Shown: positions 43,062 through 49,146 of the stretch, one piece after another
Position numbering within the stretch: the first letter of the stretch is position 1
Layout: each line of letters starts with the position of its first letter
The notes under the pieces: model-generated
Told to the model about the DNA's origin: nothing
Databases searched by the model: none
What the model saw: only the letters and a program-made list of their open reading frames with translations
Position numbers and translations under genes: made by a program
Assembly: GCA_951813395.1 (NCBI GenBank)
Contig: OX638356.1
Coordinates: 599,340 to 663,339, forward strand
Direction of reading: 5' to 3'
Source: Longimicrobiales bacterium
GTDB lineage: Bacteria; Gemmatimonadota; Gemmatimonadetes; Longimicrobiales; Gaopeijiaceae
Length of the DNA stretch: 64,000 nucleotides

Positions 43062-43135
<74 letters not shown>

Positions 43136-43159
43136 TAAATGCGACGGAGTGCTTCCGGG

Positions 43160-43183
43160 AACGCCGCCATGTGCGGCGTTTCT
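43160..43183 (+). other. hairpin after tRNA-fMet
   Basis: Perfect 8-bp stem AACGCCGC/GCGGCGTT with a 5-nt loop, followed by TCT only. It may mark 3' processing of tRNA-fMet or weak termination. Confidence 0.4.
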
Positions 43184-43223
43184 GGCGTAGCGGCCCGGGG
43201 TACCGGGACTTGGACCGGCCAGG

Positions 43224-43274
43224 CCGACCGGTGAGGTTCGACGCGAACCCGCCGGCAGGACCCGGTCGGTTTTT
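43224..43274 (+). terminator. intrinsic-terminator-like hairpin inside the tRNA array
   Basis: CCGACCGG (43224-43231) pairs with CCGGTCGG (43262-43269) around a 30-nt GC-rich interior, directly followed by TTTTT. It separates tRNA-fMet from the other 16 tRNAs, so readthrough or a second promoter would be needed for them; I saw no clear promoter in the 21 nt after it. Confidence 0.5.
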
Positions 43275-43295
43275 GTCGGAGCGTTGTCGGACTTC

Positions 43296-43368
43296 GGCCA
43301 GGTAGCTCAGTTGGTAGAGCACGCGACTGAAAATCGCGGTGTCGGCGGTTCAATTCCGTCCCTGGCCA
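43296..43368 (+). tRNA. tRNA-Phe (GAA)
   Basis: Complete cloverleaf; acceptor GGCCAGG/CCTGGCC, anticodon GAA in CTGAAAA. No encoded CCA. Confidence 0.95.
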
Positions 43369-43380
43369 TTGGTTGGCACT

Positions 43381-43454
43381 AGGTCCGTAGCTCAACTTGG
43401 TAGAGCACCGGTCTCCAAAACCGGCGGTTGGGGGTTCGAGTCCCTCCGGGCCTG
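43381..43454 (+). tRNA. tRNA-Trp (CCA)
   Basis: Complete cloverleaf; acceptor AGGTCCG/CGGGCCT, anticodon CCA, discriminator G. This normal Trp tRNA reads UGG; UGA is not expected to be read as Trp by it. Confidence 0.95.
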
Positions 43455-43469
43455 TAGCGACGGAGGTTC

Positions 43470-43541
43470 GCCCTCATCGTCTAACGGTTAGGACACCACT
43501 CTTTCAAGGTGGAGATCGGGGTTCGATTCCCCGTGAGGGTA
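43470..43541 (+). tRNA. tRNA-Glu (TTC)
   Basis: Complete cloverleaf; acceptor GCCCTCA/TGAGGGT, anticodon TTC. The only tRNA of the array with T at the wobble position. Confidence 0.95.
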
Positions 43542-43576
43542 TTTGGCCGGAGCGGGTTCCGGCCGCGCGAAAAAAT

Positions 43577-43651
43577 GGGGCTGTAGCTCAGTTTGGTTAG
43601 AGTGCCGGTCTGTCACACCGGAGGCCGCGGGTTCGAGTCCCGTCAGCCCCG
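43577..43651 (+). tRNA. tRNA-Asp (GTC)
   Basis: Complete cloverleaf; acceptor GGGGCTG/CAGCCCC, anticodon GTC, discriminator G. The D-loop is one base longer than in its neighbours. Confidence 0.95.
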
Positions 43652-43689
43652 CTGGTGGTTTTTGAAAATCTGGGTCGTGGAGCGGGTTT

Positions 43690-43762
43690 GGGGCCGTAGC
43701 TCAGTTGGGAGAGCGCCTGAATGGCATTCAGGAGGTCAGGGGTTCGACTCCCCTCGGCTCCA
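43690..43762 (+). tRNA. tRNA-Ala (GGC)
   Basis: Complete cloverleaf; acceptor GGGGCCG/CGGCTCC with the alanine identity pair G3-T70, anticodon GGC. Confidence 0.95.
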
Positions 43763-43785
43763 TTCACGGAATCGTTACGCCGAGA

Positions 43786-43870
43786 GCTCGGGTGGCGGAA
43801 TTGGTAGACGCGCAGGATTCAGGATCCTGTGGGGGTTAACCCCGTGAGGGTTCGAGTCCCTCCCCGAGCA
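43786..43870 (+). tRNA. tRNA-Leu (CAG)
   Basis: Class II tRNA with long variable arm (GGGGTTAACCCC region); acceptor GCTCGGG/CCCGAGC, anticodon CAG. Confidence 0.94.
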
Positions 43871-43959
43871 TATGGCCTGACCTGGCAGGCCGTGTTGGAA
43901 CGTGGCGCGGTGCTGCCCCCGGTGCGCGGCGGCGTGCTGTGCTGTGGACGGTTGGAAGC

Positions 43960-44043
43960 GCCCACGTGCTGGAATTGGTAGACAGGCTGGTTTGAGGGAC
44001 CAGTGTTCGAAAGGACGTACAGGTTCGAGTCCTGTCGTGGGCA
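43960..44043 (+). tRNA. tRNA-Leu (GAG)
   Basis: Class II tRNA; acceptor GCCCACG/CGTGGGC, anticodon GAG, variable arm GTTCGAAAGGAC. Confidence 0.94.
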
Positions 44044-44048
44044 CTAGA

Positions 44049-44122
44049 GCGCCCGTAGCTCAATTGGATAGAGTACCTGACTACGGATCAGGGGGTTGGG
44101 GGTTCGAGTCCTCCCGGGCGTA
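44049..44122 (+). tRNA. tRNA-Arg (ACG)
   Basis: Complete cloverleaf; acceptor GCGCCCG/CGGGCGT, anticodon ACG (A34 expected to be deaminated to inosine by TadA). Confidence 0.95.
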
Positions 44123-44130
44123 TTGATACA

Positions 44131-44204
44131 GGGCGCGTAGCTCAGCTGGCTAGAGTGCCACGTTGACATCGTGGAGGTCACAGGTTCAAGTCCTGTCGCG
44201 CCCA
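44131..44204 (+). tRNA. tRNA-Val (GAC)
   Basis: Complete cloverleaf; acceptor GGGCGCG/CGCGCCC, anticodon GAC. Confidence 0.95.
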
Positions 44205-44218
44205 CTGGCCGTCCGTTC

Positions 44219-44291
44219 GGGGCCGTAGCTCAGTTGGGAGAGCGCAGCGTTCGCAACGCTGAGGTCAGGGGTTCGACTCCCCTCGGCTCCA
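44219..44291 (+). tRNA. tRNA-Ala (CGC)
   Basis: Near-duplicate of the GGC alanine tRNA at 43690; differences concentrate in the anticodon arm. Keeps G3-T70. Anticodon CGC. Confidence 0.95.
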
Positions 44292-44344
44292 TTGGCGAGG
44301 CGGCGGGCCGTCGGGCCGTCCGCTTGCCGCCCGCCGGAAACATC

Positions 44345-44417
44345 GCCACCGTAGCTCAGCTGGTAGAGCACGTCACTCGTAATGACGGGGTCGTCGGTTC
44401 GAGTCCGACCGGTGGCT
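44345..44417 (+). tRNA. tRNA-Thr (CGT)
   Basis: Complete cloverleaf; acceptor GCCACCG/CGGTGGC, anticodon CGT, discriminator T. Confidence 0.95.
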
Positions 44418-44425
44418 CTACCCCT

Positions 44426-44498
44426 AGCCCCGTGGTGTAATTGGCAACACGTCTGACTCTGGATCAGAAGAGTCCTGGTTCGAGCCCAGGCGGGGCTA
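44426..44498 (+). tRNA. tRNA-Gln (CTG)
   Basis: Complete cloverleaf; acceptor AGCCCCG/CGGGGCT, anticodon CTG. Starts only 8 bp after tRNA-Thr. Confidence 0.95.
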
Positions 44499-44501
44499 CT
44501 T

Positions 44502-44586
44502 GGAGGGATGGCTGAGCGGCTAAAAGCGGCGCCCTGCTAAGGCGTTGGTCCCAGTGACCACGTGGGTTCGAATCCCACTCCCTCCG
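44502..44586 (+). tRNA. tRNA-Ser (GCT)
   Basis: Class II tRNA; acceptor GGAGGGA/TCCCTCC, anticodon GCT, variable arm around TTGGTCCCAGTGACCA. Its 3' end is copied in direct and inverted form within the repeat that follows (44591-44715). Confidence 0.94.
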
Positions 44587-44590
44587 CTTG

Positions 44591-44715
44591 GCGTCAGCGA
44601 TCGGAGGGAGCGCGGTTCGAACTCGTTCGAGCCGCAGGCGGTTGCGCCGCAGGGCGCGAACGCCGGAGACGGCCGAGGACGGCGGCAGCCGCCCGCAGGC
44701 CCATCCCACTCCCTC
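44591..44715 (+). repeat. tRNA-Ser-associated repeat, copy A
   Basis: About 125-bp element directly after tRNA-Ser(GCT), roughly 85% identical to copy B at 45105-45231. Near its left end (44602-44622) is an inverted copy of the tRNA's own acceptor and T-arm sequence (CGGAGGGAG..., 3 mismatches in 21). Its right end (44703-44715) is a direct copy of the tRNA end (ATCCCACTCCCTC). The interior is GC-rich and can fold into nested hairpins. No convincing ORF. Confidence 0.8.
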
Positions 44716-44750
44716 TCAAGAGCGCGAAAACCCGCTCCGACGACCCCCGG

Positions 44751-44835
44751 GGAGGCGTAGTCCTAATTGGTAAGGCACCGCACTCGAAATGCGGCGTGCG
44801 TTGAGCACTTGGGGGTTCGAGTCCCTCCGCCTCCG
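44751..44835 (+). tRNA. tRNA-Ser (CGA)
   Basis: Class II tRNA; acceptor GGAGGCG/CGCCTCC, anticodon CGA, long variable arm CGTGCGTTGAGCACTTG. Unlike the two other serine tRNAs here it has no downstream repeat. Confidence 0.93.
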
Positions 44836-44901
44836 CTCAGGGATCCCCAGGTCGCCGCTCATTGAGGGCGGCGGGATGGAGGACGAATCCTCAAAAAAAA
44901 A

Positions 44902-44975
44902 CGGGGCGTGGCTCAGTCCGGTAGAGCGCTGCGTTCGGGTCGCAGAGGTCCCCGGTTCGAATCCGGGCGCCCCGA
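44902..44975 (+). tRNA. tRNA-Pro (CGG)
   Basis: Complete cloverleaf; acceptor CGGGGCG/CGCCCCG, anticodon CGG. Preceded by a run of nine A. Confidence 0.95.
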
Positions 44976-45016
44976 TTACTTTCCGTGAGCTGGTCCCGAA
45001 ACGGTCCAGCAACCGA

Positions 45017-45100
45017 GGACGGGTGGCCGAGTGGCTTAAGGCGCACGACTGGAAATCGTGTGGGCGTCAGCCCGCGTGGGTTCGAATCCCACCCCGTCCG
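45017..45100 (+). tRNA. tRNA-Ser (GGA)
   Basis: Class II tRNA; acceptor GGACGGG/CCCGTCC, anticodon GGA, discriminator G. Last tRNA of the array; its 3' end is copied inside repeat copy B. Confidence 0.94.
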
Positions 45101-45231: not shown

Positions 45232-45238
45232 CACCTAG

Positions 45239-45255
45239 GAGCGTGCGCCGCAGAA
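45239..45255 (+). repeat. left terminal inverted repeat of the IS
   Basis: GAGCGTGCGCCGCAGAA; matches the reverse complement of the right end at 15 of 17 positions. The following 45256-45430 is non-coding IS sequence in which I see nothing further. Confidence 0.8.
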
Positions 45256-45430
45256 GCGCAGTGGATGTGAAAGAGAGGCGTGAGGATCGGCGGCGGGCAG
45301 ACTGCTTCGAGGAGCGAGGGGGTGGGGATCCGCGCCGCTGAGGGGCTGAGGGAGGCCGCAGGCCGTGAATTGGGGTGGCGAGGGTCTTCGAGAGCGCCGG
45401 GGCCGGCGTCGGTGGTGAACGATCACGGTC

Positions 45431-46753
45431 TCATGCTGCCTGAAGGGTGTGCAGCCGCTTCACATTGAGCGCCAGACACACGAGAGTCCACTCGGCCTGG
45501 ACCTTCTCGAGGCCCCGGAAGCTGAATCGCCGAAAGCCCATCGCCTCCTTGATCCATCCGATGGGCGCCTCCGCCTGCCACTTGCGACGCCCGTAGCGTC
45601 TTCGGCCCTCATCCGTCGCCAGCTTGTCGGCCATGCGCGCCCTTGCGGGATGCTTCTCCGGATCGATCCTGGCGGGCGCCTTGCCCTCCCGGCCCAGCGC
45701 CACGTACCCGTCAACGCCCCGCTTCTCCAGTTCCCGGAGGTCCTGCTCGTTGCCGTATCCCGCGTCCGCCAGCACTTGGCCGGGCGTCCCGCCGCACACC
45801 ACCTCCGCCCCATCGATCATCGGAATCAGCTGGCCCTGGTCGCTCGCGTTGTTCGTCACCCCGGCGCCCACCACCAACTGGTTCTCCCCCTCCACCGCCG
45901 TCTGCGCGTTGTAGCTCTGCTGGAACCCCTCCGAAGAAGTCTTCATGATCCGGCTCTCCGGATCCGTGAAGTTGCTCTGCGCCCGCTCGTCCGGCTCCCC
46001 GTACTCCCGCTTGTAGGGACTGCCACCCTTCGGGTTGCGCTTCTGCCCCGGCTTGCGGCCCCGCGCATCGTCCGCCGCTCTCTGCTCAGCCTCCAGGCGC
46101 GCCTTCGCCTCCCGGATCGCCGCCAGCCGGTCCTCGCGCCGCTTGAGTTCGTCCGGCAACTCGTCTCCGCGAGCCTCCTCGCCGAACCGCTCGTCCTCCG
46201 CTTCGTCCACCGCCTCGGCTCGCCCCACCAGCGCCTCGATCTCCGCCTTCAGCCGCAACTCCTCCTTCGCCATCCGGCCGTAGCTCATCGCCTTGCGCTT
46301 GCTCGCGTTCGCCCGAACCTTCGTCCCGTCCACCGATACCCTGCCCAGCCCCACCAGGCCCGAGGCCCGCGCGAGCACCACCACCTGGACGAACACCGCC
46401 CGGAAGTCTTCAAGATGCCGCTTGCGGAACTCGCACAGCGTCCGGTGCTTCGGAAAGTTCCCCGCAGCCAGCATCCGAAACGCCACATCCTCCTCCAGCC
46501 TCTTCGCCATCTTCCGCGACGAAAACGTCCCCGTCGCATACGCGTAGATCAGCACCTTGACCATCATCCGCGGATCGTACGGCGCGTTGCGACGCCCGTC
46601 CCCTTCGTACGGCGCGTAGAACGCACTCAGATCCACCGCGTCCACCAGATCGCTCACGTGGTGCGCCAGATGCCCCTCCGGCACCCACTCCCGAAGATCC
46701 AGTGGCAGCATCAGAATCTGGTCCGGCTGGTACGGTCGGAACGTCGTTCCCAT
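45431..46753 (-). CDS. IS1182-family DDE transposase
   Basis: Transposase of 440 residues, full length. N-terminal DUF772-type domain (GTFSSRKMAKRLEEDVAFRML), first catalytic Asp in GRVSVDGTKVRANAS, a charged coiled-coil-like insertion (about residues 165-240), second Asp in VLADAGYGNEQDL and the Glu in APIGWIKEAMGFRRFSFRG. ATG 46753. The only gene of the element; no frameshift or stop, so it is probably active. Confidence 0.93.
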   Translation of the reverse strand: MGTTFRPYQPDQILMLPLDLREWVPEGHLAHHVSDLVDAVDLSAFYAPYEGDGRRNAPYDPRMMVKVLIYAYATGTFSSRKMAKRLEEDVAFRMLAAGNFPKHRTLCEFRKRHLEDFRAVFVQVVVLARASGLVGLGRVSVDGTKVRANASKRKAMSYGRMAKEELRLKAEIEALVGRAEAVDEAEDERFGEEARGDELPDELKRREDRLAAIREAKARLEAEQRAADDARGRKPGQKRNPKGGSPYKREYGEPDERAQSNFTDPESRIMKTSSEGFQQSYNAQTAVEGENQLVVGAGVTNNASDQGQLIPMIDGAEVVCGGTPGQVLADAGYGNEQDLRELEKRGVDGYVALGREGKAPARIDPEKHPARARMADKLATDEGRRRYGRRKWQAEAPIGWIKEAMGFRRFSFRGLEKVQAEWTLVCLALNVKRLHTLQAA

Positions 46754-46822
46754 TGACCCCCCTCGGCTGGCCGCAAACCTTTCGCTATGCCCTCGATACC
46801 TCTAATGATAGCCGCCGCGGTT

Positions 46823-46839
46823 TTCTGCGGCGCAGCCTC
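46823..46839 (-). repeat. right terminal inverted repeat of the IS
   Basis: Reverse complement reads GAGGCTGCGCCGCAGAA, partner of 45239-45255. Next to it outside is CTAG. Confidence 0.8.
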
Positions 46840-46853
46840 CTAGCCCTGACCCT

Positions 46854-47507
46854 TCAGTCCATTCCGTCCAGCGCTGTCAGCAGCTCCGTCGGCTCGGGTC
46901 TGCGCGTATAGTCGGGGTCGGCTCCCGCGTAGGCCACGATCCCGTCGCGGCCCACGACATAGGTGGCGGGGACGGCGAGTTCCCACGTGAGATCGCCGTT
47001 GAAGCGACTCAGGTCGATTCGCAGCTCGTCGCGGTAGACATCCCGCAGGCGTTCGGGGAAAACGAAGGTCAGCCCGTAGGATCTGGCCACCCCGTTGCCG
47101 GGATCGGTCAGCACGTCGAACTCGATGCCGTCCTTTCGTGCCCATGAGGAGGCATAGTCATGGAGCTGGGGCGAGAGAGTGACCAGGGCGGCACCACGGG
47201 CGCGGATCCGGGGATACAGGGACTGAAGAGCAGCCTGCTCAGCGCGGCAGTACGGTCACCACCGCCCCCGAAAGAAGGAGAGGACCACAGGTCCGTCCTT
47301 CAGCTGCCGAGCGAGACGGATCGTCTTGTGCTCGAGGTTAGGACGTGCGAACAGCGGCGCACGGTCCCCGGCCTTCACGATGCCGTTCATGATGCCGGAT
47401 GCGGCGAGGTCGGCCGTACAGCTCCTGAGCACGGCCGTCACCGCGGGGTCGCGCTTGGCTGCTCCGGTGTTGCGGATTCGGTCGAGCGTTTCGGCGAGTG
47501 TGGGCAT
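46854..47507 (-). CDS. peroxiredoxin-like thiol oxidoreductase, candidate selenoprotein (UGA at codon 84)
   Basis: Thioredoxin-fold AhpC/TSA-type protein, read from ATG 47507 to the stop at 46854: 217 codons with one in-frame TGA at 47258-47256. The N-terminal part MPTLAETLDRIRNTGAAKRD through GPVVLSFFRGRW and the C-terminal part PYCRAEQAALQSLYPRI... are two halves of one peroxiredoxin-like family whose members read YRGGWCPYC at this point. The UGA thus replaces the first Cys of CxxC, giving UxxC. A SECIS-like hairpin follows after 15 nt. Both sides share one frame, with no other stop. Role: reduction of peroxides or disulfides. A nonsense mutation is the alternative, but an identical kind of event occurs in the OsmC gene. 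Confidence 0.87.
47228..47240 (-). promoter_or_regulatory. candidate bacterial SECIS hairpin of the peroxiredoxin-like gene
   Basis: On the minus strand GAGCA/TGCTC forms a perfect 5-bp stem with loop GGC. The stem begins 16 nt and the loop 21 nt after the in-frame TGA; the first loop base is G, as bacterial SECIS elements require. An outer CTGA/TCAG pairing with a bulge could extend the stem. Confidence 0.65.
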
Positions 47508-47639
47508 TGGGACGCATCCGGAGGCGGGCGTGAGCGTGTCCATGAATCGGAGTGGTGCCAAACCTTCGGCGCACGAATCTCGTCCTGCAAGGGCAAGGGC
47601 ACCTGCATTGCTCATGGGACTTGGCGAAAGGAGCGCAGA

Positions 47640-48422
47640 ATGACGAGACGAACGAAGCGGACGGCGGTGGCGATTGTTGTGGTGGGGGCAGCCGCGATAC
47701 CGGCGGGACTTGCGGCCCAGAGCCGCTGCGAGTTCCGCGACGAAATCGACCTCACCGGTCCGGCTGTCGGGACGCTGGATCTCGACGCCGGGGCCGGCAG
47801 GCTGGTGGTCACCGGAGGCAGCGACATCGGGGAGATCCGCGTCATGGCGGTGCTCTGTGCATCGGACCGCGACCGGCTGGAGGGCCTGGGCGTCTCCCTC
47901 GACGGCGACATGCTCCGAACCGAGTATCCGGGCCGCGTCGGAGGATGGGGCAACAACTATGCACGCATCGATCTGACGGTTGAGGTGCCGGCCGGTACGG
48001 GGATTCGGGTGGAGGACAGTTCGGGGAGCCTGGAGATCGTCGGCGTGGGGGACGTGGAGGTGCGCGACGGATCGGGGAGCATGTCGCTCCGGGATGTCGG
48101 GTCGGTGGTTGTCGAGGACGGCTCCGGGGGCCTCAGGATTGCCGAGGTGACCGGCGACGTCGACGTGGAGGACGGCTCGGGGAGCGTCGAGATTCGCAGT
48201 GTCAGCGGGAACGTGACCATATCCGACGGCTCGGGCAGCATCAGGGTGGAGGGTGTCGGGGGCACGGTGCTCATCGACGAGGTCGGATCCGGCGGAGTGT
48301 CGGTGCGGGATGTGGATGGGGACCTGGTGGTGACCGATGGCCGCCGCGAGCGCATCCGGTACTCCGACATCCGTGGATCGCTCGACCTGCCGCCGGCGCG
48401 GCGGAAGGGGCGCAGCGACTGA
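47640..48422 (+). CDS. secreted DUF4097-like repeat protein
   Basis: Exported protein of 260 residues. ATG 47640 has AAGGAG 7 nt upstream and opens a signal peptide (MTRRTKRTAVAIVVVGAAAI, cleavage near AAQS). The mature part resembles DUF4097/adhesin-type beta-helix proteins. From about residue 120 on, a ~20-residue unit recurs with a V-x-D-G-S-G-S core (VRDGSGSMSLRDV, VEDGSGGLRIAEV, VEDGSGSVEIRSV, ISDGSGSIRVEGV), about six turns. Divergent from the selenoprotein gene. Function unknown. Confidence 0.75.
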   Translation: MTRRTKRTAVAIVVVGAAAIPAGLAAQSRCEFRDEIDLTGPAVGTLDLDAGAGRLVVTGGSDIGEIRVMAVLCASDRDRLEGLGVSLDGDMLRTEYPGRVGGWGNNYARIDLTVEVPAGTGIRVEDSSGSLEIVGVGDVEVRDGSGSMSLRDVGSVVVEDGSGGLRIAEVTGDVDVEDGSGSVEIRSVSGNVTISDGSGSIRVEGVGGTVLIDEVGSGGVSVRDVDGDLVVTDGRRERIRYSDIRGSLDLPPARRKGRSD

Positions 48423-49035: not shown

Positions 49036-49146
49036 CAGCCGGGCGCCCTCGCGTCGCGTCGGGAACGAAACGGGTGCACGCGGTGATCCAGGCCGGTATT
49101 GTGTTGGACAGGGAGTCAATACGGAACTGAACCGGAGGTCATGCGC

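Follow-up and report, generated by a model that had tools for sequence, protein, structure and literature searches.

The question raised by this locus is whether an open reading frame on the minus strand of a Longimicrobiales genome, interrupted by one in-frame TGA codon, is a decayed gene or a gene in which the TGA is translated as selenocysteine (Sec). The whole stretch of DNA that was analysed, hereafter the window, comprises 64,000 nucleotides. The original prediction described a peroxiredoxin (Prx)-like gene with this TGA in the context FFRGRW-U-PYC, and its sequence, frame and coordinates were all confirmed (Table 1), the TGA being the single interruption of the frame (FFRGRW-TGA-PYC). 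When the frame was translated with the TGA as a residue, the product matched the Pfam families AhpC-TSA (PF00578; 3.5e-26, 92 bits, cut-off of 26 bits) and Redoxin (8e-18), and both matches spanned the join at the TGA. The protein combines an AhpC/TSA domain with a UxxC motif, the two features by which a Prx-like UxxC selenoprotein (PF00578) is defined, and has an N-terminal helical region (residues 1-42) ahead of the domain. The C-terminal half of the gene had been described as lacking a start, which does not hold literally, since it contains an in-frame GTG ORF of 86 aa (46854-47114); neither the active site nor the first half of the fold is included in that ORF, however.

Table 1. Features of the selenoprotein gene, in window coordinates
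Feature	Position	Strand	Remarks
Prx-like selenoprotein gene	46854..47507	-	217 codons including Sec; ATG 47507-47505, terminal TGA 46856-46854
In-frame UGA, Sec84 of UPYC	47256..47258	-	TGA in homologues of the phylum, TGC/TGT in Cys homologues
Cys87 codon TGC, predicted partner of Sec84 (Sec-Pro-Tyr-Cys)	47247..47249	-	Invariant in alignment A1
bSECIS hairpin GAGCA-GGC-UGCUC	47228..47240	-	Apical loop 47235-47233

In a search of 98 relatives, all 18 orthologues found at E<1e-40 were seen to carry one in-frame TGA. A search of 395 genomes of the phylum yielded 41 with a match at E<=1e-25, of which 40 contain the in-frame TGA; the remaining homologue, in G286 (35% identity), has TGC. The TGA-bearing genomes span several families. 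The TGA lies at exactly the equivalent codon in all 42 UGA-form sequences that were read base by base, some of which are the same genomes from different collections, leaving 36 distinct stretches. Cys in place of the UGA, which the original prediction had proposed to look for in homologues, was found as TGC or TGT in Cys forms of Sphingomonadales and of plasmids of Azospirillum, Pseudanabaena, Methylobacterium, Pantoea, Rhizobium and Paraburkholderia. Homologues thus retain the UGA, and a Cys codon stands opposite it in the Cys forms, the pattern expected of a bacterial selenoprotein. The best full-length homologues bear the name "peroxiredoxin-like family protein"; the Cys forms under this name, which come from other phyla (e.g. 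WP_246457353.1 of Azospirillum, WP_281009795.1 of Pseudanabaena) resemble the window protein in being full-length (217-227 aa, 38-45% identity) and in having a WCPYC motif at the equivalent position, but they have Cys for Sec, and the six that were examined lack the GAGCA-GGY-TGCTC hairpin. The protein encoded by the sequence L048 (VYAQ01000152.1, Gemmatimonadetes bacterium SB0672_bin_21) is also that of G019, a genome of the same genus, which would place the window in Gemmatimonadota. A UGA-form copy with 88% identity is located at 2656-3303 of L047 (JAPPNF010000025.1), from a MAG labelled Deltaproteobacteria, a label that may reflect mis-binning, mislabelling or transfer.

Conservation extends to both sides of the codon. 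The dN/dS ratio (Nei-Gojobori) is well below 1 before and after the UGA; for the pair L017/L018, dN and dS are 0.063 and 0.47 before it and 0.076 and 0.37 after it. Orthologues share an ATG or GTG start located 82-84 codons upstream of the UGA, and their genes end 130-136 codons downstream of it, which together with the low dN/dS on both sides excludes a decaying gene. In close relatives, where a frameshift or a loss of conservation past the UGA would have counted against the original prediction, the frame is unbroken and the downstream part is conserved, with dN/dS well below 1. The absence of a Sec machinery, which would equally have counted against it, was not observed either: the genome contains one strong match to tRNA-Sec (79.7 bits, cut-off of 47 bits) with the anticodon UCA, selA (7.4e-147), selB (scoring above the cut-off, in an open frame of 682 codons that includes a long C-terminal part) and a selD of the Sec type, which has its own in-frame UGA in GAG-U-ACKLG. 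The selA gene is present in all 18 relatives with the Prx-like gene vs 50 of the 80 without it, an association confounded by relatedness because all same-genus genomes have selA, with or without the gene.

The hairpin GAGCA-GGC-UGCUC was found where it had been predicted, starting at nt +16 after the UGA, and its apical loop starts after 20 nt. A stem of 5 bp, a 3-nt loop starting with GG and a spacing of 20 nt agree with the constraints of the bacterial SECIS model on stem, loop and spacing (PMC13188914). Across the 36 distinct UGA-form sequences, the four core pairs form and the loop begins with G in every case, and the fifth stem pair forms in 29; one compensated change from A-U to U-A was observed (L094). 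Partners in register 0 pair in 96%, vs at most 63% in slid registers. By synonymous conservation, codons +5 to +9 rank 1st and codons +6 to +10 rank 2nd of 142 codon windows, and codon +9 is GCT in 17 of 17 of these GC-rich genes. Neither synonymous-codon shuffling of one gene (P ~0.16) nor whole-region RNA folding of a single sequence (z -0.37) gave significance for the hairpin, and the case for it is therefore built on comparative data.

Several other readings of the locus were weighed against Sec insertion directed by this hairpin. In a pseudogene, the TGA would be a premature stop resulting from decay, and in the case of a sequencing error it would be a miscalled TGC or TGT; the break of the frame by a stop under translation table 11 and the insertion of an IS element just past the stop codon of the gene could be cited for such readings, but the identical TGA occurs in dozens of independent genomes from several families, and neither a frameshift nor a further in-frame stop is found until the gene end. 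Both possibilities were rejected because of the conserved UGA and the purifying selection past it, and their probability is negligible. No more credible is the reading of the UGA as another amino acid (Trp, as in a code 4-like system) or its selenium-independent readthrough by a near-cognate tRNA. That UGA is read through in other lineages was counted for this reading, but UGA terminates the selenoprotein gene itself and several orthologues, the adjacent Trp is encoded by TGG, the site in homologues is Cys and not Trp, and the genome combines a full Sec machinery with a SECIS-like hairpin; code reassignment was rejected on account of the Cys at the site, the use of UGA as a stop and the presence of the machinery. 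Finally, Sec insertion might be real and the hairpin an incidental result of coding conservation, the true SECIS lying elsewhere or being larger. The non-significant one-sequence tests, the limitation of core covariation to the one clean compensated pair of L094 and the protein constraint on the EQAAL codons all point in this direction, and yet we consider it very unlikely in view of the invariant GCT and top-ranking codons, the loss of pairing in slid registers, the failure of the Cys homologues L051-L053 and L092 to form the full core helix, and the presence in a paralogue group of different sequence (L063, see below) of a hairpin at an equal distance after the UGA with a different conserved stem (CAGCTC-GTG-GAGCTG). 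The overall reading of the original prediction, a UxxC selenoprotein gene, is supported by the conserved UGA/Cys exchange, selection and the Sec machinery. The gene is almost certainly a functional selenoprotein of the peroxiredoxin-like (AhpC/TSA) thioredoxin-fold class, a degree of confidence that refers to the selenoprotein reading, in which we infer Sec insertion, and not to enzyme activity.

Reports of Prx-like UxxC selenoproteins go back to at least 2005 and include the Sargasso Sea set (PMC1088965). A 2026 review describes them as predicted with high confidence and lists separately the cd02970 "peroxiredoxin-like family" with UxxS (PMC13188914). The literature thus agrees that UxxC in thioredoxin-fold proteins is a known selenoprotein pattern, as had been noted for this gene (PMC1088965; PMC13188914), and because such proteins have already been described, the window gene is a further example of a known protein kind. 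Like these proteins ("Prx-like thiol:disulfide oxidoreductase"; PMC1088965, PMC13188914), the window protein has the PF00578 domain, UxxC and not the TxxU of Sec-peroxiredoxin, and a bacterial SECIS just after the UGA; it may differ from this kind, whose listed representative is WP_010940744.1, in the N-terminal helical region, and its group is found across Gemmatimonadota. SelL-related redox proteins (NF040769) contain a related thioredoxin-fold redox domain (1.3e-6), but the score of 28.2 bits is far under the 120-bit cut-off, and their motif is UxxU. ResA-type oxidoreductases and PrxQ/Bcp peroxiredoxins share the fold and the active-site position but are cysteine enzymes. ResA, moreover, is anchored to the membrane on the extracytoplasmic side, and nothing comparable is evident in the window protein.

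An AlphaFold model built with 21 sequences, C standing for U, has a confident thioredoxin/peroxiredoxin fold (pLDDT 95.0, pTM 0.91), in which residue 84 directly precedes helix 85-103. The best fold matches in Foldseek are Bcp/PrxQ/AhpE peroxiredoxins, and ResA was also found; the solved relatives comprise ResA-type thiol-disulfide oxidoreductases and PrxQ/Bcp peroxiredoxins, with ResA as the top sequence match. When the protein is aligned with Aeropyrum PrxQ (2cx3), U84 stands opposite the Ser of SxxC and C87 opposite a conserved cysteine, which we take to be the peroxidatic cysteine. The PxxxTxxU pattern of Sec-peroxiredoxin (TxxU), with Sec at the peroxidatic position, is absent, and Sec occupies the Ser/Thr position instead. 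In the proposed mechanism, SelB would bind the hairpin, 20 nt past the UGA, and the UGA would be recoded with Sec-tRNA(UCA). The product would have 217 residues, and its U84-P-Y-C87 redox centre would sit at the N-terminal end of helix 85-103. The selenolate of U84 would attack a disulfide or hydroperoxide and then form an Se-S bond with C87, a putative selenenylsulfide, from which either thioredoxin or a thiol of low molecular weight could regenerate U84. Judging from motif and fold, the product is most likely a selenenylsulfide thiol-disulfide oxidoreductase or peroxidase with Sec84 and Cys87 as the redox pair. A thiol-disulfide reductase role would be somewhat preferred over that of a classical peroxidase, because U84 aligns with the Thr/Ser of T/SxxC and C87 with the peroxidatic cysteine. 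That the selenoprotein is a classical peroxidase (peroxiredoxin) and not a thiol-disulfide oxidoreductase is a serious, if lesser, possibility, in keeping with the peroxiredoxins among the best fold matches and with the match of Cys87 to the conserved cysteine of PrxQ; against it stand the replacement of the Thr/Ser of the T/SxxC motif by Sec, the top sequence match to ResA and the placement of UxxC Prx-like proteins among thiol:disulfide oxidoreductases in the literature (PMC13188914).

In the phylogeny of Sec and Cys forms, Cys forms from proteobacterial plasmids cluster with four of the Sec sequences, and the tree contains 3 label changes; its branches are long, and a single origin is compatible with it. 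No Cys orthologue was found in the close clade, and across much of Gemmatimonadota the protein apparently exists in the Sec form only, to judge from the sequences. The chances are about even that the full-length "peroxiredoxin-like family" protein forms an obligate UxxC selenoprotein group in Gemmatimonadota and that Sec and Cys were exchanged more than once in the wider family. If so, it would belong to an unreported selenoproteome of the phylum together with another Prx-like UGA gene and two OsmC-like ones; our literature searches found no selenoprotein survey of Gemmatimonadota. The apparently Sec-only clade beside Cys forms is a system for studying Sec/Cys exchange, the short conserved hairpin a clean example for SECIS models, and the gene itself a well-supported case of recoding that a table-11 ORF scan splits.

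The second Prx-like protein is encoded in the same genome by the paralogue L063 (G000:C1:3164970-3165296, minus strand), with the motif YRGHW-U-PYC and possibly an N-terminal signal or membrane segment; several relatives have this protein too. An OsmC-domain gene on the minus strand of the window (~1254-1550), the OsmC gene to which the original prediction refers, has an in-frame TGA at ~1505-1503 in AAAAG-U-LLGTLNG, and a further OsmC-like match, at G000:C1:3641605-3641886, likewise contains an internal TGA.

Within 46750-47720, no sigma-70-like promoter was found, and the only terminator-like site, which falls within coding sequence, is close to what chance would give. An IS element on the minus strand (45235-46843) encodes a DDE transposase (45431-46753) and has terminal inverted repeats of 21 nt (90%); only 10 nt separate its right end from the stop codon of the selenoprotein gene. 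A dense array of 17 tRNA genes occupies ~2 kb of the plus strand at 43062-45100. On the other side, a homologue of a gene of L050 (103-957, minus strand there) lies at ~47640-48422 on the plus strand, divergent to the selenoprotein gene. Further along the plus strand (49040-49130), the fragment KRVHAVIQAGIVLDRESIRN is similar to the C-terminus of an ORF of 437 aa that adjoins the orthologue in L050, and is possibly a remnant of that ORF.
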